A stretch of DNA of 46,207 nt, taken from Candidatus Poseidoniaceae archaeon. Its GTDB lineage: Archaea; Thermoplasmatota; Poseidoniia; Poseidoniales; Poseidoniaceae. A program made the translations under genes and the position numbers. Shown here piece after piece: positions 10,568 through 41,588 of the stretch (position 1 is the first letter of the stretch; each line of letters begins with the position of its first letter). The notes below the pieces were generated by a model. It was not told where the DNA came from. It did not search any database and worked only from the letters and a program-made list of their open reading frames with translations. The DNA lies in the NCBI GenBank assembly GCA_030750665.1, contig JASMHR010000004.1, forward strand, positions 1 to 46,207, in the 5' to 3' direction.

Positions 10568-13500
10568 ATGTTCCCGCGCTTCAGTGACGCAAACGGTCAA
10601 CGGAAATGCATGTTTCTAGTCTCTTTGATGGTCATGTTCTCGATGGCTCCAATATTGACTTCACCCTTGGTATCATCCCATGGAAACAGTTCAATCACCA
10701 GTTGGCCGCTCAACGGTTCGAACGATACCGGCTGGATAACACTCGATGCTGTTGGAGGCAATCCCGACACTGGAATCAGCGCCTATACCGATTTGGTTCT
10801 CGAGTTCCCTCCAGGTGCTGAATTGTCCAATGTCAGCCTCGGCATCAGAGCCGATGGTGCCTCTGGACTTGCGATTGACGAACCTCGATTATTTGGTTTG
10901 GACAACAATGAGAATCTGCTTGATTGGAATGGGTGGGGTTCATTTGGAAAGGCTGATCAATTCGCTGGTAATAATCCACATATCTCTCGATTAGCACCAT
11001 TCAGCGACAATGGAGCATCTTGGGAACTACCCGCTGGCGCCACCGTCACTGACCTCATCTTTGAGACATTGGCACCTTTGGACCCTGTTGTTTCCTTCAC
11101 ACCATACTCTCTTGATATCTCAAGGACTGCGATACATCCTGAGGATGGACGCATGTTCATGGCCATTTCAGATATTATTCTGCAGATAGATGCAAATGCT
11201 GACCCACTCGTGATTGATGTTCTTGACCTCAAGGGCGCCGATGAGATATTTGATCTCGATATTGATCTGGTCAATGACCGCCTCATCGTAGTCACCAGAG
11301 ACATGGGGCTGCACACTTTCTCTCTCTCCAATAGTGCAGATCTAGGCCAAATGCCGCAGAGTCCTGTTCCAGATGATGCAATTACGCAGATATTGGTTGA
11401 TGGTGCCAATATCTACGCTGCCAGCCCTGAGGGTTTCTTCAGCCTCAACAGTGCTGGTACTGGTTGGACCATGGAAAGAATGTCTGATACCAGCAACTGG
11501 CCATCAGGAGTACCGGCTAGTATGCTGAAAATAGGTACGACTCTATTCGTAAGCATCTGGGATGGAGGAATCGCTCGGTGGGACCTTTTCAACGGCCAAC
11601 CATTGCCCGTATGGAATACGGCAAACGATCTGCAGAGTGACACCATCCACATTCTCCATGATACAGGTACTCAACTCCTGATGGGCTCGCCCGATCAAGG
11701 AGTAGCCAGATTCAATCATCAAAGCAATTTCTGGATGGCTACTTGGAACGATGGTAACTGGTTATCGACGAATAATATCGCTGGAATTGTGGAGATGTCA
11801 GGAAATATTGGAATTCTGACAGACCAATCCTTGCATTTGTACGATACCTCAGTCGGTTCATTCAGTAGCACTCTCTCAATCTCCTCGCTCGGGCTTCCCA
11901 GAGAGGGGCTCAATCTCATACACTGGCCTTCAGGAGGGCAAAGAGCACCTGCGGCCGACCAGATGATGGTCAGCGATGGCAGTGGTAGGTTGGCTGTTAT
12001 TGAGCCATCAAGCAGCCCTATGCAGCAGAGTGACATCATAATTGCAAGTGGACCCAGTGGCTATTCAATGCAAGATGTGATTCAGGTTGGAAATATAGTA
12101 TGGGTTGCAGTCGATGAATATGTAGACCGCTTCGATACAAGTTCTCAGTTGTGGCTGGATCCAGTGAACATTGGCTCAGATACAATGGCTCTTGCACATG
12201 ATAGCAATCAGGTTTACGTTGGAACAAAAGATAGTGGAGTGGTTGCTCTGGATATCAACAATGCATCATTCATCACAAATTGGAATGCAAGTCTAAACGT
12301 TCCCTTGAATGGTAATCTCAACGATGACGTTGTCAATTCTCTGGCTACAGATGGCGATTGGTTGGTGGTAGGTCACCCCGATGGTGGAGCATCTGTCATC
12401 GATCTTTCCACCAGTAGTGTCGAACAGACATGGGGCAGCGATAACGGCCTTGAGAATGATCGGGTCAACGATGTTGCCATCCTCGATGGCATTGCATATC
12501 TTGCATTGGATGAAGGAGGAATTGAACGTGTCGAATTGATCAATGCCAGCAGACTCACTCCATGGCGTTCAACAGGTGTTGACTCTGTTCAGGAAGCCCC
12601 GATTGCTGTTGCAGGAAACATCCTGCATATCGGTCTCTATGGTTATGGTGTAGTCAGAAAGAATCTACAAACTGGAGAATTCCTTGATACTTGGTTTGGT
12701 GGGAGAAATGGAATGCCAAGTTCCAATGTTCACGCACTTCATGCTGATTCAAATGGAAATATATGGCTTGGAACACAAGAAGGCGCCAAAGTTTGGGATG
12801 GTCAGAATTTCAATAATCTAAATACTGGGAATAATGTACCTGGATCACCAAATCCAACTGTCTACTATGATTTCGATTCAGATTCCACCAGAGCATACGC
12901 CGCTACAAACGCAGGAATATGTGCTTTCTTTCTCTCCAGCAGGAACCTTGACCGGTGCTGGGACAGTGGAGATGACATGGTTTCCAATTGGATGAAATCT
13001 GTTAAAGTGAATGGAAATAATCTATTCGGTGGTTCATGGTATGGTGCTAACCTCATCGACCTTAGTACAGAAGAAGTCGTGCAAAGTTGGGAAGCCGGAG
13101 AACAGACTGGGAACGCGGTGACTGTGGTCATCGGAGATATTGCATACATTGCACTCAGGAACATGGGTATTGCTCGGTTCGACCTGACAACAAATTCTTG
13201 GTTAACGATGTGGGAAAGTGGTTCTGGTGGATTACTGGATACTGACATTGTCACCAGCATGGCTGCCGATCGCAACCCAAACCGGATATGGATTGGTGGA
13301 GATGATGGTTTCCAGTGCCTTGATTGGGTCAACGAAACAGAAGAAATTGACATTGAGAAGAGTTCTAGTGCTTTCAGTGGAAATGGAGACCCAATAGAAA
13401 TCGTCATCGAAGGTAATGTCATGTATTATTCGACATACTACTACTATGGTGATAACGTCCATAGGATAAATCTGGACACTATCACTGCACTTTCCAGTCT

Positions 13501-16500
13501 AGACGCTGGACAACGCGCTGGACTCAGTGGATATGTGCATGGCATTGGTATGGTTGGAGACTATCTGAACATCGGTGTCGGCCCAAACTGGAACGGAAAT
13601 TCTGAAGGTGCAGTTGTTCGTTGGAACACCAGTTCCTCAAGTTGGGGACCTGACTGGGAAGTCACCGGCTCCGTAGAAAGAGTCGAGATGTATCTTTCAT
13701 CCAGTGGAGACACCTGGGTTGCTTGGGGTTCTGTATTTCTAAGGCGCTATGATAGCAGTGGCCTTGTAACTGGAGAATGGGATGATTCAGATATTGAATT
13801 CCCTGTCAGAGAAATTCTCGAGTTTGATGGTGAATTACTATTCGCCACAGGCGATGGAATCGAAAGATATGATGAAGTCAATGGACAATGGTTGAGCACT
13901 TGGACACCTGGTAGTGGAATGCCTTCTGCAGCAGCGGACATGATCATGGACATCCATGTCGACGGCACCGACCTTTGGGTTGGAACTTCAGATACTAACT
14001 GGTGGGGCAACCCTCAGAACCCAACTATCTTGAAATTGGATAACACTGGGAACTGGGATGACTGGGGTGGAGGCAGTAATGGTATCTCAAATGGTTTCCC
14101 AATCTCGTTTGCTCGTTGTGATGACTATGTGCATGTAGCGATGTCCAACAACCAAAATGGGGGGGTTGCGCGTTACAATGTGAATACTGGTCAATGGAAC
14201 TCATGGACCCAAAGTGGAGGTTCTCTTGCTGATGATTCTCCTTCTGCAGTTACCTGCGATAATCAAGATACACTATACATTGGTTATTTCAACCCTGACC
14301 AAGGTATTGACAGGTATAGTTACTCACAATCGAAATTTATTCGTCAGATAGATGAAAGCAAAAATGGCATCTCTGGGGACAGTGTCTGGTGGGATTCCAT
14401 GGCATGGTCAAATGGTGTTTTGGTGATTGGGCACGAATCCGGTACAAGCGGTCAAGGAGGAAATACTGTTATACAATATGGTGGATTTTCAATGCTGGCT
14501 GCTTCTGGGAACAATGCTGGCCAAGCAAGCGTCATGTCAATTGGCACTGCGGTCACTTCTTTCTTCAGTGATGGTGGTGATTGGCTGATTGGACAAGCAG
14601 GTGCCGATAGTGGTTACTCGCATGTCGATCGGTTCAATTACCAACTGGGACTTAACACTGAATTTGACCTCCCTGGACTGATGAATGGAAATGTTGTGGA
14701 ATTCACTTCCAATTCTACTCATGTCTGGGTTGTGACTGGAACCTCGCAAGGATTGGGCAGCGGAGTCCTCCAAGGCTTGATTCTCCCAAATGAAAGTGTA
14801 GAATGGGAATTCGGCTGGAGTGGTCAAGGTGGAGAGGTAGAAGAGATCGTCTATCACAATGGATATGTCTGGGCCTCTGTCAATGGCAGAGGAATTGCAA
14901 GATTGGACCCTAGCAATGGTCGAGCCATGTGGATGCCGCAAGGGTTGCACAGCGTGGTTGATGGCCTAGTCATTAATGGAGATGATTTGGTTGTCGGACT
15001 CCAAGGAACATGGTACTCCGGACCCGGAGTGAGTATTCTCAACACTACTCAGCAACAATGGACTGGGGGGCGGCTGATTTCAGGTCTGCCCAGCAATATC
15101 GTCAATGATTTCCTTATCGATGGTTCGATTGCATACATAGCCACTGAAGGAGGAATAGGGCGATGGAACCTGAGCAGTGAAGAATGGGAGGACTCTCTAA
15201 CCAGTCTTGATGGCCTACCAACCAACAATATCTATTCACTGAACCTCTGGCAATCCACTTCATCAGGTACAGTAAGTGAAAGTACTCTCTATATCGGAAC
15301 TTCGGGCGGTCTTGCTCGATTTGATTTATTGGCTGGTTCTGCATTATCCACTATGACGCTGGCACACGGGCTGATTGGAACCAAGAGTGGAGCTGCTGAA
15401 CTTTGGAGTGCCAACAGTGGCTCAACCCCAAATTTGTTTGTTGCCCATGATGGTTCAGGTTCCACTCGCCCCGGAGTCTCTGAAATCAGTCTGAATGGGA
15501 ATGATTCCGTAGTGGATATTCATCGTATCGACCAGTTACCAAGCAACAATGTGTTTGCATTAGCAAGCGATTGGTGGGGCCTTCACATCGCCACTAACAA
15601 GGAACCATTGGTGCATTGGAATCTGACAACAAGAGAATTCGAAGATGGGGCCACATCATGGCAGACGATAGGTTGGCCTGTTAGAGGAATGAATAGTGAC
15701 GGCACTAATCTGATTGCAACAACTCCGATGGGATTCACCCGCATCGATGCCAGCGGAAATGGACATTATGTGTTGGACACTGAGATATTACAAGGTGCAA
15801 CAAATGGATTCATCAGTTCTTCAGGAATATGGGTGACCACAAACAACGGAGATGGATTGTTTGGATGGGGGCCTGCTCCATCTTTCACTAAATACGAACA
15901 GTTCACCATGAGAAGAGCGGCGCCCCTGAGTGCCTCCTTCCTCTCTACTTCAATGAATGTGACTGACAAGACTCATCCTGGAATGACCATTACTCTGGTC
16001 GATTCCAGCAACCCGCAATCAGTTCCAAGTGTTGGTGGAAATTCTGGCCCTGGAGGCATCAAGATGTTGTTGATGCCCCTGATTCTATCTTCGCCCACTG
16101 CAGGAGCAGCAACCTATGCCATTAGTCACGGACTGAATTACAGTGGGACATGGTGGTTGAATGAATCCGACTCTGGACTTGATGATAAATTACAGAGAAT
16201 TGTTGATGGTGGTAAATTGCTCAATGGAAGTAGATTCGTCACCCTCCGATTACAGAGTCCGAACAATGGCTCTATGGATATCAAACTCTCATATGATTGG
16301 CTTCGAACCGATAGCCCAGTCGAGATTACCGACCTGTATGATAGACCAAATGACGGTGGTTCAACACTGACTGCAAATTGGAGTCTAGTGCATGATGTCG
16401 ATTTCGCAAGATACCTGCTATTCCTCAATGAAGGCCCATGGGCAACCCCTCCAATGAAGTCTGATTTGACTGCTCTAACACCCGATGCTTCGATCAGCAT

Positions 16501-18904
16501 TCATAGCAGGACCTCGACAGATATAGTCACTGCTGGCGGTTCACCATTGATTGATGGTGTCGAATACTGGGGCGTTGTGGTTGTCGAATATTCCGATGGT
16601 CGCTGGGGTGCCGTTAGTCAACCATTTGGATCTGCTACTTCCAGTGATGAGATACCTGCCTCACCTGAATGGGTGGAGGCTGGACCGAATGAAGGTGGAG
16701 AACGTGGCGAATTATTTGTTGAATGGAAGAGATGCGATGCATTGGATCTTGCTGGAACCAATCTCTATCACAGTTCTACAGCCATCACAGATGTTGTTGG
16801 GATGACTGAATCATCATCGGTGCCAACAACTCAAGGAAACTCAACCATCATAGATCTTGAAGCAGGAATACCATATTGGATTGGTTTGACCTGCTATGAT
16901 GAGGCAGGACAAGAAGACCAGATGAATGCCACTATTATTGGCCCAGTGGTTCCTACTGGTGGGATAAATGACGGCATTCCTCCATCCAGAATCGAGGGTG
17001 TCTGGGCAGATGATGTGCCTGATGATGAGGGTGGGCGAATAGAAGTAGGTTGGATTCCATCAACTGCCGATGATTGTGCTTTCTATACCATTTACATCAT
17101 GGAATTGAATGTCGATATTCCAGTCAACGAAGATGGTGTTCCATCCAATGTCGTTGATTTCCTGGTTTCTCAAGTGGTCACTGATTGTGCTCAGAATTCT
17201 ACCATCATCTCAGAAATTGATGGAATGCCCCTTGTTGATGGTAGAGCGTATTGGATTGCTGTTGTCGCTTCAGATGATTGGTTGAATGAAGACTTGGGTA
17301 ATGTCAATATTGTTGAAGCAACTCCGCTGAGGAATCTGATCAACGTCAATATCGCCCCTGAACGCATTGATACACTGAACGCGTGGGATCTTCCTGATGA
17401 CGATGGAACCGCCATTGAAGTCCTATGGGAGCCAGATGTATCAGATGATTTCGATTATTATGTCGTATGGGCATCTAACTCAGATATCACTGACTTGACC
17501 ATTTCTGATGCGCTATACAACCCCGATTACTCGATGTGTGGATGCCGGAAGGTGTCAAATCAGAAGAATGGCGATTCGGGTGAAGCACTGACAGTGGTCA
17601 TGCACAATGCGAGATATGATGGCTATGAACAGGGCATCATTCCTGATGTGGAATTGAATGTAGCAGTCACAGTTTATGATATCAAAGGTAATGTCCATCT
17701 CGATGGATTGAACACCGTCTCAGTGACTCCCATCAACAACAGCCTCGATGAAACTGCTCCTGAGCGACTTGATCTTATTCTCCTTTCAGATTATAGCGGC
17801 GATGCTGGAGACAAATTGGTACTTGACTTCGATCTTTCTGATGCCAGCGATGTGGATGAATATCATGTCTACGCAGCGACATGGGACTTCGAGGGTGAAG
17901 TCGGAATTGGGCAAAAAGGCCCTGATAATTACATCATGAAACTCGATAGAAATCCAACCCTTCCTCTTGTTATCAATGAGTTGTTCGATGATCCGCTCAT
18001 CCCTGGACAGACTGTCTATGTAACCGTCGTAGTGGTGGACACCAATGGAAATGCACACATGACCGGCCTGACCATGGCAGCAGCAGCCCCAATGGATGAT
18101 CTTGGAGATGACCCCGGCTCACACCTGCCAACCATTGCAGACCTCAATGTCGAATGGGTATCAGCAGGAAGTAGAATTCTTGTTTCGTGGAGCCCAACAG
18201 GTGATGCAGTGGTCCAATCGTTCAAGATATACATCTCCGATGAACAATTCGATAATGTGGAGGATGCAGTTCTGGTCGATACTGTATTCGCTTCGAACTC
18301 ATTATTCATCTCAACTGACAACCATGAAAGTCTGGACAATGAAACCACTTGGTGGGTTGGAGTTTCGGCTTCAGAATGCGGAGAAGGTTGGCCAGATTGC
18401 CCCATATACCGCAGGGCAATCACCCCTCTCCATCTCTCAGCACCTAGTAGCAGCGGTTCAACAGAGAGTGATGCAACTAGTGCAAAAGACGACTTCAGTC
18501 TATCCGATTACGCTACTCCACAGAATATGCTTGCAGCAGCCTTGGGTATTGCAATACTGTTGTTGTTGTTCGTGATGATACGAGACAAGAAACCGAGGAA
18601 AGGAAAGAGCCATTGGGACCTAGAATCCACGTGGGGAATCGATATACAACCGCGTAATGATTGGGATGATGACTTCGATGTTCTTTCAACGCCGAAATCA
18701 GAAATGACAACTGGCATCATGTCGGCTGCTCAGAACATTGAGCAACAAAGAGGTGCTATCCCAATGCCCGATATGGGGGCACAAGTCCCTATACAGAATC
18801 AATCAGTCTCAAATCTCAGTGGACTGACCGATGACCTACTCGATGAACCCGGCAAGAAGAGTGGAAGTAGCATCGATACCTCCTTCCTCGATGACCTGTT
18901 GTGA
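10568..18904 (+). CDS. Giant secreted/surface multi-beta-propeller protein with FN3-like C-terminal region, single TM and cytoplasmic tail
   Basis: 2778 aa; N-terminal hydrophobic signal, dozens of propeller-like blades (e.g. SSNVHALHADSNGNIWLGTQEGAKVWDG, DDVVNSLATDGDWLVVGHPDGGASVID), FN3-like repeats near the C-terminus, TM NMLAAALGIAILLLLFVMIRDKK, tail ending TDDLLDEPGKKSGSSIDTSFLDDLL. Confidence 0.9.
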   Translation: MFPRFSDANGQRKCMFLVSLMVMFSMAPILTSPLVSSHGNSSITSWPLNGSNDTGWITLDAVGGNPDTGISAYTDLVLEFPPGAELSNVSLGIRADGASGLAIDEPRLFGLDNNENLLDWNGWGSFGKADQFAGNNPHISRLAPFSDNGASWELPAGATVTDLIFETLAPLDPVVSFTPYSLDISRTAIHPEDGRMFMAISDIILQIDANADPLVIDVLDLKGADEIFDLDIDLVNDRLIVVTRDMGLHTFSLSNSADLGQMPQSPVPDDAITQILVDGANIYAASPEGFFSLNSAGTGWTMERMSDTSNWPSGVPASMLKIGTTLFVSIWDGGIARWDLFNGQPLPVWNTANDLQSDTIHILHDTGTQLLMGSPDQGVARFNHQSNFWMATWNDGNWLSTNNIAGIVEMSGNIGILTDQSLHLYDTSVGSFSSTLSISSLGLPREGLNLIHWPSGGQRAPAADQMMVSDGSGRLAVIEPSSSPMQQSDIIIASGPSGYSMQDVIQVGNIVWVAVDEYVDRFDTSSQLWLDPVNIGSDTMALAHDSNQVYVGTKDSGVVALDINNASFITNWNASLNVPLNGNLNDDVVNSLATDGDWLVVGHPDGGASVIDLSTSSVEQTWGSDNGLENDRVNDVAILDGIAYLALDEGGIERVELINASRLTPWRSTGVDSVQEAPIAVAGNILHIGLYGYGVVRKNLQTGEFLDTWFGGRNGMPSSNVHALHADSNGNIWLGTQEGAKVWDGQNFNNLNTGNNVPGSPNPTVYYDFDSDSTRAYAATNAGICAFFLSSRNLDRCWDSGDDMVSNWMKSVKVNGNNLFGGSWYGANLIDLSTEEVVQSWEAGEQTGNAVTVVIGDIAYIALRNMGIARFDLTTNSWLTMWESGSGGLLDTDIVTSMAADRNPNRIWIGGDDGFQCLDWVNETEEIDIEKSSSAFSGNGDPIEIVIEGNVMYYSTYYYYGDNVHRINLDTITALSSLDAGQRAGLSGYVHGIGMVGDYLNIGVGPNWNGNSEGAVVRWNTSSSSWGPDWEVTGSVERVEMYLSSSGDTWVAWGSVFLRRYDSSGLVTGEWDDSDIEFPVREILEFDGELLFATGDGIERYDEVNGQWLSTWTPGSGMPSAAADMIMDIHVDGTDLWVGTSDTNWWGNPQNPTILKLDNTGNWDDWGGGSNGISNGFPISFARCDDYVHVAMSNNQNGGVARYNVNTGQWNSWTQSGGSLADDSPSAVTCDNQDTLYIGYFNPDQGIDRYSYSQSKFIRQIDESKNGISGDSVWWDSMAWSNGVLVIGHESGTSGQGGNTVIQYGGFSMLAASGNNAGQASVMSIGTAVTSFFSDGGDWLIGQAGADSGYSHVDRFNYQLGLNTEFDLPGLMNGNVVEFTSNSTHVWVVTGTSQGLGSGVLQGLILPNESVEWEFGWSGQGGEVEEIVYHNGYVWASVNGRGIARLDPSNGRAMWMPQGLHSVVDGLVINGDDLVVGLQGTWYSGPGVSILNTTQQQWTGGRLISGLPSNIVNDFLIDGSIAYIATEGGIGRWNLSSEEWEDSLTSLDGLPTNNIYSLNLWQSTSSGTVSESTLYIGTSGGLARFDLLAGSALSTMTLAHGLIGTKSGAAELWSANSGSTPNLFVAHDGSGSTRPGVSEISLNGNDSVVDIHRIDQLPSNNVFALASDWWGLHIATNKEPLVHWNLTTREFEDGATSWQTIGWPVRGMNSDGTNLIATTPMGFTRIDASGNGHYVLDTEILQGATNGFISSSGIWVTTNNGDGLFGWGPAPSFTKYEQFTMRRAAPLSASFLSTSMNVTDKTHPGMTITLVDSSNPQSVPSVGGNSGPGGIKMLLMPLILSSPTAGAATYAISHGLNYSGTWWLNESDSGLDDKLQRIVDGGKLLNGSRFVTLRLQSPNNGSMDIKLSYDWLRTDSPVEITDLYDRPNDGGSTLTANWSLVHDVDFARYLLFLNEGPWATPPMKSDLTALTPDASISIHSRTSTDIVTAGGSPLIDGVEYWGVVVVEYSDGRWGAVSQPFGSATSSDEIPASPEWVEAGPNEGGERGELFVEWKRCDALDLAGTNLYHSSTAITDVVGMTESSSVPTTQGNSTIIDLEAGIPYWIGLTCYDEAGQEDQMNATIIGPVVPTGGINDGIPPSRIEGVWADDVPDDEGGRIEVGWIPSTADDCAFYTIYIMELNVDIPVNEDGVPSNVVDFLVSQVVTDCAQNSTIISEIDGMPLVDGRAYWIAVVASDDWLNEDLGNVNIVEATPLRNLINVNIAPERIDTLNAWDLPDDDGTAIEVLWEPDVSDDFDYYVVWASNSDITDLTISDALYNPDYSMCGCRKVSNQKNGDSGEALTVVMHNARYDGYEQGIIPDVELNVAVTVYDIKGNVHLDGLNTVSVTPINNSLDETAPERLDLILLSDYSGDAGDKLVLDFDLSDASDVDEYHVYAATWDFEGEVGIGQKGPDNYIMKLDRNPTLPLVINELFDDPLIPGQTVYVTVVVVDTNGNAHMTGLTMAAAAPMDDLGDDPGSHLPTIADLNVEWVSAGSRILVSWSPTGDAVVQSFKIYISDEQFDNVEDAVLVDTVFASNSLFISTDNHESLDNETTWWVGVSASECGEGWPDCPIYRRAITPLHLSAPSSSGSTESDATSAKDDFSLSDYATPQNMLAAALGIAILLLLFVMIRDKKPRKGKSHWDLESTWGIDIQPRNDWDDDFDVLSTPKSEMTTGIMSAAQNIEQQRGAIPMPDMGAQVPIQNQSVSNLSGLTDDLLDEPGKKSGSSIDTSFLDDLL

Positions 18905-23833: not shown

Positions 23834-25984
23834 CTAGAGTAAGCGTGCGATGATGTCACTCTTGGTGCCACTTGATGAAACACCTCGCTCGTCAGCCAGA
23901 GAAACCAGTTCCGCCTTCTTCATCTTGTTGAGTTCTCCTCCGTCGAGCGATTCTGAGGTTTCTTCCCCACCATCGTTGCTGAATTCCTTGGAAAGTGAAT
24001 TCATTATCTTCAGCATGTGGATATCCAATTCAGGGATGTTGACCTTTCCATCACCATCGAGATCCATTGCTGATACCATCTTCTCAACATCCCATGGAGG
24101 CAGGTCAGCGATATCAAGAGAGGCCAAGCCTTCTCGTATCTCGAATGGGGAAATTAGTCCATCACTATTTAGATCCATCTTCATGAATAAATCGATAGTG
24201 GTCGTTCCAGTTTCATGCAACCAGCGAGCAAGGTCTACAAGTTCTGACTGGAAGGAAGAAAGTGGGTCGACTGGGGCCGCCTCAGGTACTGGCATTACCA
24301 CGCCATCATCTGTATGAAGTGCTGCTGATACTCCGACATCTGTAGAACTCGGCTCTTCAGTTTCTTCTTCAGGGGCTGAAACTACGATTTCTGTGTCGAC
24401 TCCAACTCCTCTGGAAACGAGGTTCCTGATACTGGTGGTTCCAGAATGTAAGTGGAAGGAGTCCATGCCTACGCTGGCTGGTGCCTCATCCTCCTCTACC
24501 TCATCGGAGAATAGAGTCGCAACCATATTGATAGAACCGATGAAGGTAGCGATAACAACACCGTAGAATAAAGCAGCAGAAGTAAGATAGTAACCGCCTA
24601 GATGACTACTGGCATCTTCAACACCAGCATCACTCAGGGTATTGGAAGCGAAATTCGCCATCAATAGAGCCACAGTGGAGCCAATACCACCCAACAACAT
24701 CAACCAGAAAGCCCATCGAGCCTTGGAAAGACTGGATAGCCGACGGCCGACAACTTCTGGAAACAGGCTGCCCCAGATAGCCAAGGCGACCAAGCCGCCA
24801 ACGGTCCACAATATTCCATGATCAACTGTACTCTGAACACCGCCCATATTGTGCGAACCATTCAGAGCATCGAGAGCGGAAAAGAACCCAAATAGCGCAA
24901 AAATTGGCAGCAGAAGAGTTGCACTTGCTGATGTAACACCACCTGGATTTGCAACAACCATTTCCCAACGTCCCTGCATTGTGGATATCAGATTTGAAGA
25001 AGCTGCCAGCAGAGGAATCAATCCAACCACTGTCAATACCGCAGTGAATGTCAGCATTACATCTCCTGAAACCGCAGTTTCCGACATCCCTAGTACTGGA
25101 ACACTGGCGAAGACAAGTGAATAGGAAATCAAAGTCAAGGAACGACTCCATATTGGTGCACCACTGACTTTAGGAATCACGTGATATAGAACTGCCAAGA
25201 ACATCGCTAGAGGGAACCAGCCAAACACTACTCTGTCAGCAAACCAAGCGAGGTCTGCAAGTTCCATCTCTGAAGCAAGGTCGCCGCTGATGAGCAGATT
25301 GCATGTGCGGATCAACAAGGCCCAAAACATCGATAGATGAGCCATGATGATGAACCATGATGAAACCTGAATCGGGGAATCTCCTCTTCCACCAAGAGCA
25401 AGTAAATGGTTGAGGAGCAAAGCACCTATCATACCGGCATATGCCAGTTCAATCACTGCATGGAACATATCAGTGAAATCGATGAACATTGGAAGTATCA
25501 TCGAAGCCAAAGTCAGTCCGAACCAACCAAATGCTACCAGAGAAGCATTCGCCTCACTACCTAATCCCCCACCATTAGCACGGGCATTGATATGAAGACC
25601 TGCTCCAATCAAAGTCATACCAAGGAAACCCCAGATGAGGCTTTGTTCTGCCAATCTGTCCATAACAGCAGCGTCATAACTCCATCCAATACCGGATAAC
25701 GAGTCAAGGGCCTTGGCATCATAACTAAGCCAAATTGAAAGGAATGTCACTGTAGAAGCGATAGTTGCCCATATCGCTCCAAACAATAACCAATTCTTGG
25801 CTCCGGCCCCTTTCTCTTTGGAGAACATATCGATTACTCCAGCAGGGGCCTTATCCAACAGGAATACTGATAATTGGCGCAATGGGCGACGCAACTCTCC
25901 TAATCCGTTGTTTGCCCAATGGGCAGTCAACAGCATCGCTAATATCAGCAAAATAAGTTCAGGAAGTAGAATTGAAAACATCAT
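23834..25984 (-). CDS. Heme-copper oxidase subunit I-like polytopic membrane protein, apparently ligand-degenerate, with C-terminal EF-hand pair and SAP-like motif
   Basis: About 12 hydrophobic helices; VLYHVIPKVSGAPIWSRSL and STVDHGILWTVGGLVALAIWGSLFPEVVGRRL resemble HCO subunit I segments; EF loops DLNSDGLISPFE and DLDGDGKVNIPE; tail LNKMKKAELVSLADERGVSSSGTKSDIIARLL. Confidence 0.65.
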   Translation of the reverse strand: MMFSILLPELILLILAMLLTAHWANNGLGELRRPLRQLSVFLLDKAPAGVIDMFSKEKGAGAKNWLLFGAIWATIASTVTFLSIWLSYDAKALDSLSGIGWSYDAAVMDRLAEQSLIWGFLGMTLIGAGLHINARANGGGLGSEANASLVAFGWFGLTLASMILPMFIDFTDMFHAVIELAYAGMIGALLLNHLLALGGRGDSPIQVSSWFIIMAHLSMFWALLIRTCNLLISGDLASEMELADLAWFADRVVFGWFPLAMFLAVLYHVIPKVSGAPIWSRSLTLISYSLVFASVPVLGMSETAVSGDVMLTFTAVLTVVGLIPLLAASSNLISTMQGRWEMVVANPGGVTSASATLLLPIFALFGFFSALDALNGSHNMGGVQSTVDHGILWTVGGLVALAIWGSLFPEVVGRRLSSLSKARWAFWLMLLGGIGSTVALLMANFASNTLSDAGVEDASSHLGGYYLTSAALFYGVVIATFIGSINMVATLFSDEVEEDEAPASVGMDSFHLHSGTTSIRNLVSRGVGVDTEIVVSAPEEETEEPSSTDVGVSAALHTDDGVVMPVPEAAPVDPLSSFQSELVDLARWLHETGTTTIDLFMKMDLNSDGLISPFEIREGLASLDIADLPPWDVEKMVSAMDLDGDGKVNIPELDIHMLKIMNSLSKEFSNDGGEETSESLDGGELNKMKKAELVSLADERGVSSSGTKSDIIARLL

Positions 25985-31603: not shown

Positions 31604-34600
31604 TCACGATTCTGAGACCTTACCAAGAACTTGGCCCTTTGGACCACATAATCTGACTCGGCCACGATAATGTGGACAACTTCTGCATGCCTCTGCTGCA
31701 CTACCTGAAAGACGTTCTACAATATCCTCTGATATTTCTGTTACCTTCATCAATGATAGTATTGACAACAACTCAATCAATTTTTCTCTCTCTAACGCGA
31801 TGGAGCCTTCTTCGGAGACAAGTCTGCCATTTGCTGCAACATACAGTGCCGGAGGAAGTATGGTGCGTCGTTGCTCCTCTGGTTTTGCCAACTCCTGACT
31901 TTCCAATGCAAGAGCATACAACGCTAATTGCATCCGATGCTCCTGCAATAATTCTTGTTCTGCAACACTCATTTTCTCAGTTCCGGAAACTGTTTGTAAC
32001 GGGTCTCCAGAATCAGGATCAGTGACATTGAACTTCCCTCCGCAGCCTCTTGTCTTCAAATCGACCACAAGATATGCAGAACTTCCATCATCCTTACCAA
32101 GAGCGAGAACAAGATCGATTCTTCCCGTCATACTGGCAATAACGGTCTCGATATCTGCAATCGTCTTCGAACCAGATGGCGTCCAAGAGGAAAGAGCAAG
32201 GTTCCTTGCTGTACATAGACCAAGGTCGAATGGCATCTCGGTTCTCAATCCTTCAACCTTCCAACCGCGATACTCGCCTGTAATGCAGGCTTGCCCCAAT
32301 TCACCTCCAATCAATAATCCAGATAGAATTCGCATTCTTTCCTCAGTTTCAACCACATCGATATCAGGCGTCGAATATTCTTCAATCACCTGTTTCAAGA
32401 CCGAATCATCCAACATCCGCTGAGCAGAAGCGATGGTCCAATCGCGTGGAAGGGGAGGGGTTTCTTCCAATTCAATGACTGGATTCGGCAACCCAACCTC
32501 TACCAATCGGTGAAACAATGTTCCTAATGTTGCGGGGTCGGGTAATCCATGAACTGCAGTCTCAATATGAATCGAACCTAATGGCTCACTTGGCCATCCA
32601 TGATGAGATTCCAACCAATGCCGCCTAAGACAAGTGGCTGCAGTATCAACCGAAGAAGGAGCAAGTCTGATTCTTCTTCTTCTTTTCATTACGCCTCTGA
32701 CGCGAGGATTAGCAGAATTGTTTGCCAAGCCTTGTTCATGAATTCTTACTTGTTGCAATAGACTTCTGGCTTCTACACCCTCTATCATGAAACAGTCTGG
32801 ATCATGATACAGTGTCAATCGTGGCCCATTGGCAACTCCAATTCCAGAATCTGACCTTAGGGATGCTGGATTGAGAAATAATGTCCTATCTGGCGAGCCA
32901 TCCACAGGGAACGCCAAACTATCATCAACAGGCTTGATCAACCATGGGGAGTTCTCTTGTTGGGTAGAGATGGCTGCTGCCCTCAGGGCGTCCAACCACA
33001 TTGTACCCATATTTCTGCGACTACCTGGTTTGTGCTGAACTTGTATTGCGCCGCTCTGGTTCTGAGAAACTGTTCCAGGGCTACCAACTAGAATGAGATG
33101 ACTCTTGACACGGGTCATCGATACATACAGCAAACGTCGAGTCTCTGCTTCACTCTGGGCCTCAAGTAATGATTCGGCCAGCATCCACAACCCATGCGGA
33201 GACAGTTTGCCTGTTTTCCATGGTTTCACCCTACCTGCAATCAACTCAGGGGTTACGATGAGGTGATCTCGGGTGGTATTTGCCACCGAACGACGTCCTG
33301 CTTGGAACAATCCGGCAATAACCACTACCTTGGCTTGTAGACCCTTTGCAGCGTGAATTGTCATCAATCGAACACAACCACCCAATGCTGGAGCCTTGGC
33401 AGCAGGACCATCCTTGCCAAGAGCACTCAATTTCTCCAAACGCTCATGAATCCTGACTGCATTCCCGCCATTGGAACTAACCATGCCCCTGAGAATGTTG
33501 ATGAACATTTCAATCTCATTCCGTGCTGAAGGTTCGGACCAAGTCAACAACAAATCAGAATGGTTCACGGCATCTTCCACCGCTCTCAATAAGTCACCAT
33601 TCAGGGAATGTTGATACCATCTCTCCAATAACCTCCGTTCCATTTCGGTTCGAGCATTTCTGATCAATGCCTGGAATGGTTCTGTAGTACTCGCGGCAAA
33701 TGTCTGAGAAACCAATGCATCTTGCCAACCCAACAAACTGGAACGGGCAAGAGAAATCACCAGATCCGTTCTCGATGGATTAGATATCGCCCCAACCAAG
33801 GTACGTAATGCACGAGTAGCTGGCCTTTGGAGCAGTGGACCCATTTTATCTGCTGTTGATGGTATCCTCCATGCTTCCAGCCTTTTCATCAAGTCATCAA
33901 TATGCGTTCTGGTTGGTAACAACACCATGATATCCTCAGGGGCGACTCGTTCCATGGTGGGCAACTGCACCCATGTACTTCCCTCTTCTTGAGGAGAAGA
34001 AATTCGGGTCGATATTCCATTGATTAAACAATACAGGCGCCGCGCTATCATCTCATTCTCAAGATGGGCTCCTTTGGCCCTTGGAGATGAAAATGGGTCA
34101 AGAACTTCATTCAGATCCGAGCCGGGATCATCTGCAGCCCTTGGTACTGGTAGCAGCCATTCCAGACTACCGCGCTTGTCAATATGATGCGGACGTAGAG
34201 GTTGAGGATAGGCATACCATGGCCCTTCCAATCCATGATGCCGTTCAGAGAACACATCATCGCACAGGATGTTGATGGTCTGCAACAACCCCTCATCGGT
34301 TCGATGGTTGGTCGAGAGGTCGATATGCCCCTGCGCCCTTGCTTCTGCAACATCATGATTCGAGATACTTCCATCATCCTCAAGGTCGAATCTCCACCAC
34401 GAATACTTCTGTTCATATTTCGTGGGTTCAAATCTATCTGCTTGTACAAATGTCGAATGCACTCCGCTCCCTCCTTCTGGAGGACGGGGATCTCTGCTCA
34501 CTTCATTTGAATGAATATCTTGAATTCTGTGTTCATTCAATCCCTCTTCACGGTTGATTCCTCTGATAGTAGAAATCGCATTCCGCATGACTGTCACTTG

Positions 34601-36460
34601 AGCCTGCCTGAATCTGTAGATACTTTGTTTGACATCGCCCACGAGACAAATAGTGGGATCCCAAGGGCCTGAAGGAGCCTCTGGTTCTCCTGGCTCGAGG
34701 TGTCTTCTCCCCCACAATCTAGCAAGTAATCGCCATTGCTGAGGATTGGTGTCTTGAAACTCGTCTATGATGAATGCCCTGAAACGTCGTCTGATATTCC
34801 TGAGCAATTGCCATCTCATCTGAAGGTCCGTCTTTGCTTTCTCATCCTCTCCTGCCATCAATGCCTGCTCGATATGATGGTCCATCCATGGTTCATTCGT
34901 TAAATCATCCAAAGCACTGACCATAGCACGTGGATACCATGAGCGACAGATATCTGGGCATCTGGCCAATAACAGATCCTCTGCCATTCTCTGCATGTCA
35001 GAATGATCATGCATTCCAGAATGGCGTTTCATCTGCACCCTGATCATATCGACTGCCCTTAATACGATGAACAAATCCTGCATCATGTCAATCTGTAGAT
35101 TTGAACCCAATCTAGGGTTTTCTTTTGGCGCTGAAATCGGAATCTCTTCCAAGACATCCGGATTCATCTTGGTACCTGTTGGGGCGGGATTGGGTAATAC
35201 TGAGTCATCATGAAGTGCTGCTGCTCTTGCAACCGTTCTCAATCTGTTTCCAGTAGGAGTGGACAAGAGAGACCTGATGCATTCCGCTTGTTCAGCAGCA
35301 TCTTCCTTGATCTCATTCCTGATTCCGGCTGCAATGCTGTTCCACTTTCCTATCCCTTCAGGCCAACCACCATTCTGGTTTCCCTTAGGAGTCAGGCCTC
35401 TTGGCAGAACATTAGGCCTAACCGCAGAATATTGTGTGACCGAGGCCATGGTGATGAGAACATGGTGACACCACAATAATCGGTGCCAAGCATCTTCTCC
35501 AGGTCCAGCATTCAATAATTCATCCAACGCTCTTGTTCTGGTATCTTCTGATAATCCAGCACTCAATTCCAAAGCCTCAAATTGAGAACGGACAATATCA
35601 AGCCAAGCAAGACCATGCTCATGTATCGCTTCACTCAATTCAACGACGTCAGGGACCATTGATAGTAGCATATCTTCCACGGAACGGGCTGCATCATTTT
35701 CGTTTCTTCGTAGACGTCGCTGCCAAACCTTCTCGGCTTCCTCGACGAACAAGGACTGTTTGATCAGTCCTTTGATGATGGTCCCCGCAGTCTTCCTCCC
35801 CCCCATTGAAGCAGCCAACCTATCTCTAGCCTGTAACATCCCAAGGACATCTCCGACCAAACCAGCATCAAGGGCATCAAGTTCACTCTGTAGACACCAC
35901 AACAGATTGATTGCAGCATCATTGAGCAATGGGCCCTCTTCTTCAGCCATGGTCTGTGATACTGGAATCTCCTTGATCAACGACATATGTGGTGCAACAA
36001 GACGCGAAAGGAAACTATCGATGGTGCCTATTGGTGCACTATCGAGTAATGATGTCAATTGCTCCACAAATCCCTGTTTTCGTAAACGAGGATCGACAGT
36101 GGAACTCGATTCACCATCCGGTGCAGAAGCAAGACTTGAGAGGATTGAGCGAATCTTCTCCTTGAGTTCAGCAGCAGCTTTGACGGTGAAGGTGATGGCA
36201 ACGCATTCAGGTGGCAGCAAGCCGTTCCATTCATCCAATTCCTGTTGTTGACGACGAGGTACCCGTAATGCACCTTGTCCAGAAACCGGTTCTCTAGGCC
36301 CCTTTGGCAAGATTCTGCTGGCTCTTTGATCCTCACAGAGGATGTGTTCAATGTATCGAATCGACATGACCGTTGTCTTTCCTGTTCCTGCGCCGGCATC
36401 CATTATCAGGTGCCTATCAAGATCAAGACCGTGGCATTGGCTGCGATTCAGAGTCGTCAA
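31604..36460 (-). CDS. addA-like: UvrD/AddA-like superfamily 1 helicase with C-terminal PD-(D/E)XK nuclease domain
   Basis: Walker A MDAGAGTGKTTVMSIRYI; FIIDEFQDTNPQQWRLL; LVGDVKQSIYRFRQAQ; LMTIHAAKGLQAKVVVIAG; RRLLYVSMTRVKSHLIL; nuclease IDLVLALGKDDGSSAYLVVDLKTRG; start re-assigned to TTG 36460 (TTGA overlap with upstream stop). Confidence 0.9.
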   Translation of the reverse strand: MTTLNRSQCHGLDLDRHLIMDAGAGTGKTTVMSIRYIEHILCEDQRASRILPKGPREPVSGQGALRVPRRQQQELDEWNGLLPPECVAITFTVKAAAELKEKIRSILSSLASAPDGESSSTVDPRLRKQGFVEQLTSLLDSAPIGTIDSFLSRLVAPHMSLIKEIPVSQTMAEEEGPLLNDAAINLLWCLQSELDALDAGLVGDVLGMLQARDRLAASMGGRKTAGTIIKGLIKQSLFVEEAEKVWQRRLRRNENDAARSVEDMLLSMVPDVVELSEAIHEHGLAWLDIVRSQFEALELSAGLSEDTRTRALDELLNAGPGEDAWHRLLWCHHVLITMASVTQYSAVRPNVLPRGLTPKGNQNGGWPEGIGKWNSIAAGIRNEIKEDAAEQAECIRSLLSTPTGNRLRTVARAAALHDDSVLPNPAPTGTKMNPDVLEEIPISAPKENPRLGSNLQIDMMQDLFIVLRAVDMIRVQMKRHSGMHDHSDMQRMAEDLLLARCPDICRSWYPRAMVSALDDLTNEPWMDHHIEQALMAGEDEKAKTDLQMRWQLLRNIRRRFRAFIIDEFQDTNPQQWRLLARLWGRRHLEPGEPEAPSGPWDPTICLVGDVKQSIYRFRQAQVTVMRNAISTIRGINREEGLNEHRIQDIHSNEVSRDPRPPEGGSGVHSTFVQADRFEPTKYEQKYSWWRFDLEDDGSISNHDVAEARAQGHIDLSTNHRTDEGLLQTINILCDDVFSERHHGLEGPWYAYPQPLRPHHIDKRGSLEWLLPVPRAADDPGSDLNEVLDPFSSPRAKGAHLENEMIARRLYCLINGISTRISSPQEEGSTWVQLPTMERVAPEDIMVLLPTRTHIDDLMKRLEAWRIPSTADKMGPLLQRPATRALRTLVGAISNPSRTDLVISLARSSLLGWQDALVSQTFAASTTEPFQALIRNARTEMERRLLERWYQHSLNGDLLRAVEDAVNHSDLLLTWSEPSARNEIEMFINILRGMVSSNGGNAVRIHERLEKLSALGKDGPAAKAPALGGCVRLMTIHAAKGLQAKVVVIAGLFQAGRRSVANTTRDHLIVTPELIAGRVKPWKTGKLSPHGLWMLAESLLEAQSEAETRRLLYVSMTRVKSHLILVGSPGTVSQNQSGAIQVQHKPGSRRNMGTMWLDALRAAAISTQQENSPWLIKPVDDSLAFPVDGSPDRTLFLNPASLRSDSGIGVANGPRLTLYHDPDCFMIEGVEARSLLQQVRIHEQGLANNSANPRVRGVMKRRRRIRLAPSSVDTAATCLRRHWLESHHGWPSEPLGSIHIETAVHGLPDPATLGTLFHRLVEVGLPNPVIELEETPPLPRDWTIASAQRMLDDSVLKQVIEEYSTPDIDVVETEERMRILSGLLIGGELGQACITGEYRGWKVEGLRTEMPFDLGLCTARNLALSSWTPSGSKTIADIETVIASMTGRIDLVLALGKDDGSSAYLVVDLKTRGCGGKFNVTDPDSGDPLQTVSGTEKMSVAEQELLQEHRMQLALYALALESQELAKPEEQRRTILPPALYVAANGRLVSEEGSIALEREKLIELLSILSLMKVTEISEDIVERLSGSAAEACRSCPHYRGRVRLCGPKGQVLGKVSES

Positions 36461-39400
36461 GAGAATCCCCCCTTGAAAGCAATATCCAACCCACAAGACA
36501 TCTTCACTGGACAGTATGAGCACATCTTTGCAGAGGGTGTTGGATTTACCTGCCCTCTGCTTGCTGCTTCAACAACCCTTCCTGAAATCTCCAATCTGTG
36601 GCGCAACCAAGCCCTGAATGGAACACTCTTTGGGTCTGAATGTGATTCACCTCGTCGGCGGTGAAGAAGACTGCTAATATCAGTTCCAATATCTGCAACT
36701 TCGTCATTGATATCTGTTAGAACAGACTCGTCCAACTCCAAAAGATGGTTTGTCCACTCGCCAACCTCGCTCACCCCGACTGCAACTACCCTATCACCAG
36801 GATTGGCTAATTCCCAAGAGCGTGCATAAAGAGCAAGTTGGACTTCATTCAAAATCGCTGCCTTGTGGCGTTTGCCAATGTCTTTCTTCTCAGGTCCTTC
36901 GATGCTCTTGACTTCACGAATCACAATGTGTCGCAAAGATGAGTCATGGTCACCAATATCCAGATCAAGAGGTACTATCTCTTCCTTACCTTCCTCTCTT
37001 ATCCAACCATGTTTCTGAGGAAGAACCTCGATTCTATCTATTCTACCTGAAGCAGAAAATCTCCACTTTTCATCTCCGGCTTCTGGGGCAGAGGGTATCT
37101 CGATAATTGCACGACCACCATCAATTGAAACCATGTCCCATTCCATACAGACTATCCCGATACCTGTCAACCCCATCTCCCGTCTCAACATCGCTCCTAA
37201 TCTCCCTCCGATGATTATCGGTGCATCTTCATCATCTTCCCACTCAATCAATTCTTCAAGGGACAAACCCAACATGCTACGGCGTCGATGTGAAGCTACT
37301 GCATCACCACGCGCCAACCATGGAGCGATATTGAGAGCATGCCTCAAGGCGATAGACATGATTTCGGCCAATGGCCGTCTAGACGCTGCAAGATTCGAAC
37401 ATTTCTCATGATCATTGATTGCTCCTATCTCAAATCCCATCACTTCAGCCAATGTCAAGGCCAATACCTCGTGTACCAAAATGCCTCGTAATCTTCCATC
37501 CATATCCTCCTCGAAGGTTTCAGGTTCAGATGCCCTGAGTTGATGTTTGAGCCAACCCTTACGTGGACAATCCAACCAATCATGCAATCTAGATGCTGAC
37601 CATCGCATCTCAATCGGTTTGACTTCTGAAAATCCAAAGCGCTGATCCAATACTTCAACACCAGTACTTGGAAGACGAATTGGTCTGATGTCCACACTTG
37701 GTGTGCGCTTCTTTTTGGGATGTGGGCGACCGATGATTGGCCAAATTTCATTGAATCTTGGAGGTTGGACATCTTCTGGAAGAGTCCATGATTTCAACAG
37801 ATCGAGATCTTGACTTGATACGAGGGATGCCATCTCATCCTGATTCAAATATTCACCTGAAGGGCGCGATGGTATTCTGCTGTTTCTCTCTTCGATGACC
37901 TGAGACTCCCAACGAGTCAAGGCTGCACCTGGCGTCACCTGTTCTGCTTGACCTCCTGAGATTGCAGATAACCCCGCAGCCTGACGCCCATCTCTGAATC
38001 TTGGACCTTTAAGTTGCATAGAGAATCCTCCATCTTTCAAGAGTTCTATCGTCAACGGTTCGGGTCCGATTCCGTGCCCGATATCTTCCACTTGCAACGA
38101 CTTCCAACCTGGCATTAATCCTTCAGCGTGCAAAAGATACGAAGGGGGATTGAGCCATGAGAATCTGGTTTCCTGACCTACTTCATCAAGAATCTCAGCC
38201 CAATGTGTTCCTGCTGGATTTGATTCAGTGACACTAGTATCCATCACGATGACTTCTTTGGCTGCATGTAATACATGCCTGATCAAATGACGAGCAGAAC
38301 GCATAGGTGAATCTGGTCGTTCTACGCCCAATGCCAATCTATCACTCAGTTCCATCCAAGGAACTGCGGGCGAAGTGACTGGCCAAGCAGTTGATGAAAC
38401 CCCTGCGAGAATGACTGTGTCCGCATCACAACCAAGAGCCTGAGAAGGTGTCAATACTCTGAGTAATGCATCCTCAACACGTAATGAAACTTGATTGATT
38501 CCATCTATCAGACAATCCAATGCCTCTAGTGCCTTCCTACCGACAAGCGGTTCGGAAGATTCACTCGTCTTCTCCAGTCTTTGAACTGCTTCGATAAGAT
38601 TTCTCAATGCTCCTATTGAAGGTGGTGAGAGATTGGTCAATTCGACCCAGTCAACCATTTCCACGAAACCATCGAACCACCCATACATGTCTCCAATCTT
38701 TTCCGGTAATGGTAATGGCGATGAACTCGAACAACCGATTGATGGAACCTTTGCCAATACATCTTGTTGTATCTCATCCAACCATGGACACAGTCTGTGG
38801 GCGGTACACAAGATCCACCATTGAGTCTCCTCTCTGGCCCTCCTTCTCTCCTCGACAGATATCCAAGGGTGCTCAAATCGAGGTTCAGCAAGTGCTCTGC
38901 ACCATTGACCCAATGCGTATGGACCACCGCGGATATGGATTCCATGAGCAACTTCCACCAGCAATTCTGAATGTGGTCTTGGACGCCATTCTGGATTCTC
39001 TGGATGTGGAGCGACATCAAGCCATTGTTGAGACAATGGAAAGCCACTGTTGACATGAGACAACAATCTCTCTGGAGACCATGATTCATCCCCAAGTCCG
39101 ATGGCAAGCATCGTTCGAAGTGAGTGAATGGCTGACAATTCAGAGATAGGTGACGGCTTTGATTGCACAGACCATCCTGCTTCAGACAGGACTTCATGCC
39201 AGATTGAAGGGTCGCGGTTCACATCACCATCGACTACCATTATACTCTCAGTTCGTCGTTCCTTGGCAGTGTGTTCTTTTGCATCGAGCAAGGAGAGGAC
39301 CGAAGATATCTCGTCGCTTCCCTCCTCGAGTAGAATTCGATGCAATGATACTGTGCGCGTATTCTCAGACTGAGGTTCATGGTCAGGAACCCATAGGGGT

Positions 39401-40185
39401 AATTCAGAGCCGCTCTTGCAAGGATGTATATCCTCAATCAATGCTCCATGATGACCCAAACGGTACGAACCCGGTCCAATCAATTGATGGATGGGTACGT
39501 GTAACGATACCCCTTTCAGGAATTCAATATCAAGTTCAGTCATGGTAGGGTCATGGTCGAGCATGATGATGCCATCGATATTGGTGAATGTGAATGGAGT
39601 GTCATCCATCTGGTTCAAGTTCCTGATCAAATGAGGCTTGATCAATCTTGGATGGGGGCGGTCATGTCGTGTTTCTATTTCCCGCAACACTTTGTCAAAT
39701 TCAATTGCTCCCGGGTCTCCATCCCACTCACCCAATACTCCCGATTGCTGCAATGATGAATGTAATGATGCCAATCTACGCGTCCTTGCTAATGGCCAAT
39801 CTCTAGTGACATCTGCATGGAGAAGTGGGAAGCCCATTGCCTTGGCATGTGTGGAAACATGTTCCTGCTCAAGGAGCAGGAGTACTCCATCGTCACTGAA
39901 TGGTCTAGATATTCGGAAATCAGCCACCAACAAATCAGCAAGGCTATTGATGGTCTGGTGATTCTCTGGATTAAGTGTGAATCCAGAATGATCTCGACCA
40001 CTTGATAAATCGAGAATGGCTTGCTTCCGTGATGCTGAAGATGGATGAAGCACAATCAGTCGTCCACCTGCCTCGTCGGCCTCGCGCAGATGATTGCTCA
40101 ACCACTCGGGAAGACATGTTCCCAGGGGTGAATGCTCGATTGACAATCGAGGCACCCTATCTTGAGGAGGCTTTTCCATACTCAT
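36457..40185 (-). CDS. addB-like: AddB-like protein with C-terminal Fe-S PD-(D/E)XK nuclease domain
   Basis: LTPSQALGCDADTVILAGVSSTAWP, RWSASRLHDWLDCPRKGWLKHQL, GRIDRIEV...HIVIREVKSIEG, CSYCPVKMSCGLD; pairs with the adjacent AddA-like gene. Confidence 0.85.
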   Translation of the reverse strand: MSMEKPPQDRVPRLSIEHSPLGTCLPEWLSNHLREADEAGGRLIVLHPSSASRKQAILDLSSGRDHSGFTLNPENHQTINSLADLLVADFRISRPFSDDGVLLLLEQEHVSTHAKAMGFPLLHADVTRDWPLARTRRLASLHSSLQQSGVLGEWDGDPGAIEFDKVLREIETRHDRPHPRLIKPHLIRNLNQMDDTPFTFTNIDGIIMLDHDPTMTELDIEFLKGVSLHVPIHQLIGPGSYRLGHHGALIEDIHPCKSGSELPLWVPDHEPQSENTRTVSLHRILLEEGSDEISSVLSLLDAKEHTAKERRTESIMVVDGDVNRDPSIWHEVLSEAGWSVQSKPSPISELSAIHSLRTMLAIGLGDESWSPERLLSHVNSGFPLSQQWLDVAPHPENPEWRPRPHSELLVEVAHGIHIRGGPYALGQWCRALAEPRFEHPWISVEERRRAREETQWWILCTAHRLCPWLDEIQQDVLAKVPSIGCSSSSPLPLPEKIGDMYGWFDGFVEMVDWVELTNLSPPSIGALRNLIEAVQRLEKTSESSEPLVGRKALEALDCLIDGINQVSLRVEDALLRVLTPSQALGCDADTVILAGVSSTAWPVTSPAVPWMELSDRLALGVERPDSPMRSARHLIRHVLHAAKEVIVMDTSVTESNPAGTHWAEILDEVGQETRFSWLNPPSYLLHAEGLMPGWKSLQVEDIGHGIGPEPLTIELLKDGGFSMQLKGPRFRDGRQAAGLSAISGGQAEQVTPGAALTRWESQVIEERNSRIPSRPSGEYLNQDEMASLVSSQDLDLLKSWTLPEDVQPPRFNEIWPIIGRPHPKKKRTPSVDIRPIRLPSTGVEVLDQRFGFSEVKPIEMRWSASRLHDWLDCPRKGWLKHQLRASEPETFEEDMDGRLRGILVHEVLALTLAEVMGFEIGAINDHEKCSNLAASRRPLAEIMSIALRHALNIAPWLARGDAVASHRRRSMLGLSLEELIEWEDDEDAPIIIGGRLGAMLRREMGLTGIGIVCMEWDMVSIDGGRAIIEIPSAPEAGDEKWRFSASGRIDRIEVLPQKHGWIREEGKEEIVPLDLDIGDHDSSLRHIVIREVKSIEGPEKKDIGKRHKAAILNEVQLALYARSWELANPGDRVVAVGVSEVGEWTNHLLELDESVLTDINDEVADIGTDISSLLHRRRGESHSDPKSVPFRAWLRHRLEISGRVVEAASRGQVNPTPSAKMCSYCPVKMSCGLDIAFKGGFS

Positions 40186-40388: not shown

Positions 40389-40577
40389 AAGAAAAACGGC
40401 CTTGGGACCGAAACATTTTTAGACTACCGGCAACACGCTCTAAATCTCCGCTGGAATGAGGTACTGCGAGATGACATGATGATGAGACCCTGCGTTCAGA
40501 ACTACACCAATATCTTGGACAATTGTCTCACCATCATAACTCAAATCAATCTCATGCGGGGAAAGGAGTGTAATACA

Positions 40578-41588
40578 ATGAACGAAAAATGTGATGAATG
40601 TAATAGCGAAGTAAAAGAAGACCCGGAAACCGGTGAACTCTTGTGTAAAGATTGCGGGCTGGTGATGAACGATTCTGTTCTTGAGCAAGATGGCGGGAAT
40701 ATGCTCCATGGGGATAACGCTCAATCTGAAACTGCGAAGAACTCCCGTATTAAGGATACTGAATTGGAGGGTACAACATTCATTCCCGATGATGTCAAAG
40801 GCGGTGCGGCAAGGGGGCTTTGGAGAAGACTCATCAAGCATCAAGCCCGTGGCAGAAGAGGACGTAAAGTATTCGCCGATGATGTGATGGAACAAGTCAA
40901 GGCCCTTGGACTGGGAAGAGATGTAGAAATTGCTGTGAAGATCGTAGTGAAAGCTACGTTGGTTGCACAGACGGATGAGGCAGAATTTCAGCAAAATCTT
41001 GGAAAACTCCCCCTCAATGAAATCCGTATGGTGAAGAATGCTCAGAGAACTGATAGAGAAAGGGTCGCAGCAATCGCCGCTGTAATGACCGCTGCCAATT
41101 TCAATATGATAGTGCAATGTAGATTGACTCCCTTCATCTCACGTTGGGGCATCAAAAGGTCTGATTGCAATGAGATGGCTAAGAGGATGAAGGCTAGAAT
41201 CGTCAGGATGAGGGCGCTCGGACGCATCAACATCTCTACCTGTATGCGCCCTTCAGCACGTAGAAAGGCCAATCTCGATGAGGCGATGAAGAAGATGAGA
41301 TGCGGTCTTGTCGAGAACAGTTCTCTCAATGAAACCCAGGTCAGAGGTGTCATTTCTGGTTGTGTCAAGATGCTCATATACTTGGGTGAACCAGAATGTG
41401 ACAGTGCCACACCCAACGAAAGAGCTGACATGTTGGTGGCCTCTGTGGCAAAGGAAGTCTCCAAGCGACTTGGACTGACCGGAATCAACACTTGCATCGC
41501 TAACAGCCTAGAACTATCAACAGGAGGCGTATGTCAAAGACACAAAGTCCTCAGAAAGCTGTTCAAGAACGAAGATGATGGGCTCTGA
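40578..41588 (+). CDS. Divergent transcription initiation factor B (TFB) paralogue (ORF extends to 40476; ATG 40578 preferred)
   Basis: Zinc ribbon CDECNSEVKEDPETGELLCKDCGLVMNDS; helical cyclin-like C-terminal part ending GGVCQRHKVLRKLFK; GAAAGGAG upstream of 40578. Confidence 0.82.
   Translation: MNEKCDECNSEVKEDPETGELLCKDCGLVMNDSVLEQDGGNMLHGDNAQSETAKNSRIKDTELEGTTFIPDDVKGGAARGLWRRLIKHQARGRRGRKVFADDVMEQVKALGLGRDVEIAVKIVVKATLVAQTDEAEFQQNLGKLPLNEIRMVKNAQRTDRERVAAIAAVMTAANFNMIVQCRLTPFISRWGIKRSDCNEMAKRMKARIVRMRALGRINISTCMRPSARRKANLDEAMKKMRCGLVENSSLNETQVRGVISGCVKMLIYLGEPECDSATPNERADMLVASVAKEVSKRLGLTGINTCIANSLELSTGGVCQRHKVLRKLFKNEDDGL

Follow-up and report, generated by a model that had tools for sequence, protein, structure and literature searches.

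The window, i.e. the whole 46,207-nucleotide stretch of DNA analysed, is a contig of Poseidoniales (Marine Group II), which are among the most abundant marine archaeal groups. Two adjacent genes on its minus strand, addB (36457-40185) followed by addA (31604-36523), were the objects of the analysis. The original prediction had described them as an AddAB-like helicase-nuclease with cysteine-framed nuclease domains in both subunits, and both open reading frames were recovered on this strand at the predicted positions with every motif it had quoted. The features identified are given below, with AddA residues counted from the GTG at 36523 and not from the TTG at 36460.

31604..36523, minus strand: addA-like gene encoding a UvrD-type motor and a C-terminal PD-(D/E)XK nuclease
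36371..36397, minus strand: conserved Walker A motif of AddA (AGAGTGKTT)
31607..32842, minus strand: AddA nuclease domain, modelled with AlphaFold (model A1)
32630..32632, minus strand: first framing cysteine of AddA, C1298 (TAATCLRRHW)
32510..32512, minus strand: catalytic histidine of AddA, H1338
32114..32116, minus strand: catalytic aspartate of AddA, D1470 (GRIDLVL)
32054..32062, minus strand: catalytic D1488-x-K1490 of AddA (VVDLKTRG)
31646..31687, minus strand: second to fourth framing cysteines of AddA, C1613, C1616 and C1626 (CRSC...LC; spacing CxxCx9C)
36457..40185, minus strand: addB-like gene encoding a helicase-like N-terminal part without Walker A and a C-terminal PD-(D/E)XK nuclease with a four-cysteine frame
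36460..37653, minus strand: AddB nuclease domain, modelled with AlphaFold (model A2)
37567..37569, minus strand: first framing cysteine of AddB, C873 (LDCPRKGW)
36493..36522, minus strand: second to fourth framing cysteines of AddB, C1222, C1225 and C1231 (CSYCPVKMSC; spacing CxxCx5C)

The most likely start of addA is the TTG at 36460-36458 rather than the GTG at 36523; this TTG overlaps the addB stop codon (TTGA). Domain searches assigned UvrD N- and C-terminal helicase domains and PDDEXK_1 to AddA, and only PDDEXK_1 to AddB. The SF1A motor motifs of AddA are intact, including Walker A. Both nuclease domains retain their catalytic residues (motifs GRIDRIEV and IREVKS in AddB), with one cysteine upstream and three downstream of the catalytic core. 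The NCBIfam equivalog scores were 119.9 bits for AddA against a cut-off of 707.65, and 17.6 for AddB against 486.5; since both are far under the cut-offs, the pair is a remote relative lying outside these equivalogs.

The pair shares with bacterial AddAB (Bacillus subtilis; 3u44/4cej) the addB-addA gene order, one UvrD motor, carried by AddA, PD-(D/E)XK nucleases in both subunits, and the Fe-S-type four-cysteine frame in AddB. It differs from bacterial AddAB in the missing Walker A of AddB, in sequences far below the family cut-offs, and in a frame present also in AddA, whereas the one Firmicutes AddA compared, from a Pusillibacter plasmid, has none. Membership in RecBCD, where RecC carries a dead nuclease, was rejected because the nuclease residues of AddB are conserved across Poseidoniales. 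Mycobacterial AdnAB is likewise a two-subunit motor-nuclease, and its AdnA subunit (the AddB counterpart) was matched by fold. However, in AdnAB each subunit contains a UvrD-like motor (PMC13309787), while Poseidoniales AddB has no UvrD motor; with a single motor, in AddA only, assignment to AdnAB was also rejected.

The frame expected in AddB (C873 with C1222, C1225 and C1231) was confirmed, and its four cysteines were invariant (39/39 sequences). For AddA, 151 non-redundant sequences (<95% identity) were compared, and the catalytic residues H, D, D, K, Q and Y (HDDKQY) were invariant in 151/151. Cysteines were counted in two regions set after a first alignment, a 19-residue upstream motif and the C-terminal tail. 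Four cysteines were found in 136 sequences, five in 3, three in 2, two in 4, and none in 6, while the background cysteine frequency elsewhere in the domain (0.65%) gives an expectation of about 0.4 in the two regions. The matching frame claimed for AddA is therefore real. Of the two sequences with three cysteines, one is incomplete in the aligned upstream motif and the other contains an unread residue.

The arrangement of the four cysteines is flexible. With one upstream and three in the tail, tail spacings were 2-9 in 106 sequences, 1-2 in 12, 5-2 in 8, 7-2 in 1, and 6-0 in 1; seven other sequences have a 2+2 arrangement, and one (L155) has 0+4, with serine replacing the upstream cysteine and a fourth cysteine in the tail. 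On a tree built without the cysteine columns, the arrangements take 15 changes and the "four or not" character takes 5, and at least seven branches read from the tree carry a rearrangement that keeps four cysteines. Since the AddA sequences are related, the 136 cases are not independent, and the rearrangements are the stronger evidence. An independent-pairs test of upstream against downstream cysteines yielded only three contrasts and fell short of significance; with so few contrasts, the four-cysteine claim is based on the constant total. Together, the conservation and rearrangements provide strong evidence for a predicted four-cysteine metal site in AddA, and a site that needs four thiolates and is retained or lost whole would be the simplest explanation of the pattern.

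Exceptions to the four cysteines are mostly coordinated losses. The original prediction had regarded homologues without these cysteines as evidence against the frame; about 10 of the 151 are of this kind, but six of them lost all framing cysteines together, as expected if the cysteines work as one unit. A single clade accounts for five of the six. Loss is less certain in the remaining sequence, L042, which has a long branch and whose contig contains unread bases; in its genome match (G045:C8), with unread bases and in-frame stops, the frame is gone but the sequence may be damaged. AddB retains its four cysteines in the genomes with frame-less AddA, where AddB could be read. The four two-cysteine sequences form one clade (L043, L044, L069, and L175) with one upstream and one tail cysteine and extra histidines nearby (KCRHNHW ... 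HAMSC), which may form a Cys/His metal site. The notion that only four cysteines are conserved in AddA was rejected: C1244, outside the frame, is conserved in 56/61 sequences. It stays in L042, L045, L046 and L075, the four of the six frame-less sequences aligned at this position, and thus lies outside the four-cysteine unit. Other cysteines conserved outside the frame are C522 (40/40) and C626 (41/41).

The AddA cysteines could have been kept by descent alone, as a relict of an Fe-S ancestor or as disulfides, with no metal bound. The six coordinated losses and the clade reduced to two cysteines would agree with a dispensable frame. However, inertia poorly explains four cysteines kept through at least seven rearrangements, and disulfides do not require exactly four, which makes a metal-free frame very improbable.

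Searches of PDB by sequence with the AddA nuclease profile or a cyanobacterial AddA nuclease returned no matches, and a fold search was therefore used. The AlphaFold model of the AddA nuclease (47 sequences; mean pLDDT 88.4, pTM 0.82) matched, in order, Dna2, RecB, AdnA, the Cas4-like ACE1, AddA, and AddB, with modest TM-scores (0.3-0.4) and large rmsd, values that a domain with big inserts may give. The best match of the AddB model was B. subtilis AddB. The A1 alignment had been picked for sequences with the full motif, and the conservation figures above were therefore taken from other, unselected sets. Dna2, Cas4, and AdnA, Fe-S nucleases of the RecB family with significant fold matches, share the one-plus-three cysteines around a RecB-like nuclease and differ in having other motors or none. 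The Cas4/AddB type is spaced CxxCx5C, and this spacing of Fe-S RecB-type nucleases was not found in the window AddA or most of its relatives, which have CxxCx9C. The AddB cluster has been called an Fe-S "staple" (PMC3466216), and this staple is reported to be essential for protein integrity and binding of broken DNA.

A structural zinc in AddA, with an Fe-S cluster in AddB only, is the main rival of the Fe-S reading. Zinc is held in the same kind of cysteine frame on a RecB fold by DUF3799 (3L0A; PMC3466216). The flexible spacing (CxCxxC, Cx5CxxC, 2+2) would be easier to reconcile with zinc, CxxCx9C and its variants depart from the CxxCx5C of the staple and would suit zinc too, and one lineage combines 1+1 cysteines with extra histidines close by. 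On the contrary, replacements in the other rearranged sequences are cysteines only, and the closest framed structural relatives (Dna2, AdnA, AddB, and Cas4) are Fe-S proteins. We consider zinc in AddA unlikely, though the least so of the alternatives, and we infer from these relatives that an Fe-S cluster is the favoured candidate. The conserved four-cysteine frame in both subunits of the proposed dual Fe-S enzyme is observed, while its Fe-S character is a prediction tempered by the zinc of DUF3799. The Fe-S assembly genes SufBD are present.

The dual frame extends beyond Poseidoniales. Bacterial comparison loci came from plasmids only, and a tblastn search of AddB against plasmids gave no match. 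Plasmid pairs of Picosynechococcus, Kovacikia and Deinococcus (L164, L166, L169, L171, and L173) are framed in both subunits, with an upstream cysteine, a downstream CxxC...C and intact nuclease motifs. Profile-profile alignment of Poseidoniales with Deinococcus/cyanobacterial AddA nucleases (probability 96%, E 2.6e-9) pairs all four AddA cysteines, CxxCx9C being CxxCx5C with four extra residues. Nevertheless, the Deinococcus and cyanobacterial AddAs have CxxCx5C, and the motor tree keeps them apart from Poseidoniales; in the outgroup motor tree, long branches left the origin of Poseidoniales AddA without placement. In haloarchaeal plasmids (L159-L163, L167, and L168), a framed AddB-like gene is directly followed by an AddA-like gene, but this AddA has no cysteine frame and forms a separate clade in the motor tree. 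The annotations of the haloarchaeal genes go no further than "PD-(D/E)XK nuclease family" and "UvrD-helicase domain-containing". AddA of a Thermus plasmid (L170) also has no frame. AddAB had been considered atypical for archaea; an AddAB-like pair does occur in this archaeon, and the haloarchaeal plasmids show that such pairs are found in other archaea too. The Deinococcus sp. QL22 plasmid pair adjoins BREX genes, and the Thermus pair is located near a cas3 gene.

Of 146 Poseidoniales genomes, 138 contained a relative of the AddA nuclease, and every one of the 22 sampled genera was represented; addB adjoins addA in the fetched loci, and the pair is kept across two families. Named relatives are metagenome-assembled genomes of Candidatus Poseidoniales / Marine Group II, the closest being 89% identical. 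Two Poseidoniales-type AddAs bear bacterial titles (L081, Deltaproteobacteria AH-558-G13; L096, Flavobacteriales SP80) and probably represent mislabelled bins; that of L081 shares 56% identity with the window AddA and falls in the same group of the tree. The Poseidoniales AddA profile gave no match in any of the six listed genomes of a different order in this class, and among 293 genomes of the phylum its matches were confined to Poseidoniales, although distant AddAs could escape this profile.

AddAB and RecBCD degrade foreign DNA, and the pair could mainly serve to destroy invading DNA instead of resecting host ends for recombination. The haloarchaeal, Deinococcus and Thermus relatives are plasmid-borne; BREX genes adjoin one of them, and a Cas3 gene lies close to another. 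Yet occurrence in nearly all Poseidoniales genomes with conservation across two families is what a housekeeping enzyme would show, and a mainly defensive role appears improbable.

A role in end resection is suggested by the lack of NurA, which was found in 0/97 Poseidoniales genomes by a search that was positive in 7/14 controls. HerA-type (DUF87) ATPases were found in 31/60 genomes sampled, the stronger ones mostly being open reading frames of about 700-900 codons, and none was found in the genome of the window, which is 71% complete. The Rad50 zinc-hook model gave nothing above the cut-off in Poseidoniales, this model being positive in only 3/14 controls. Since NurA was found in no sampled genome of the order, AddAB probably took over end resection and would replace HerA-NurA in Poseidoniales; with HerA-type ATPases in about half of the genomes sampled, the missing NurA is the main ground for this proposal. 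No report of such a replacement in this order was found in the CC-licensed part of PubMed Central.

Overall, we consider it about two-thirds probable that the genes encode an AddAB-type helicase-nuclease resecting double-strand break ends in place of HerA-NurA, with a four-cysteine site in each nuclease, most likely Fe-S in both. AddA would be the sole motor, and AddB a motor-dead scaffold with a nuclease. In B. subtilis AddAB, AddA unwinds the duplex and its nuclease cuts the 3'-ended strand, while the AddB nuclease cuts the 5'-ended strand. By analogy, the two Poseidoniales nucleases would share out the strands in the same way during unwinding, AddB cutting the 5'-ended one and AddA the 3'-ended one; this strand assignment is taken from B. 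subtilis, and the catalytic residues conserved in both domains are consistent with it. The predicted metal site, made up of the one cysteine that precedes the catalytic core and the three that follow it, would close each nuclease domain. It appears obligatory in AddB; in AddA it would usually be retained, and in some lineages rearranged or lost with the active site intact.

In the literature found, the Fe-S staple of AddAB was described for AddB only, and no description of a cluster in AddA or of a dual frame was found in CC-licensed PubMed Central, while Poseidoniales as a rule carry a second framed nuclease. AddAs that have no frame and retain the active site offer built-in controls for staple function. 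The further proposal of a two-cluster resection enzyme, in which AddA gained or kept an Fe-S staple of its own with a different spacing, its ligands migrating several times at constant number, is evenly balanced between acceptance and doubt. If it is true, nature provides a series of versions of one enzyme, some ligand-swapped and others cluster-free. As a variant of the AddAB kind, the Poseidoniales enzyme preserves ligand rearrangement in its natural sequences with unusual clarity.

Several other genes in the window were unusual. The divergent neighbour of addB (40476-41588, plus strand) encodes a protein of 370 aa whose only Pfam match is a TFIIB-type zinc ribbon. An open reading frame of 2778 aa (10568-18904, plus strand) gave only a weak beta-propeller match in Pfam, below the cut-off. 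A 716-aa protein (23834-25984, minus strand) combines EF-hands with a C-terminal SAP domain, an odd pairing.
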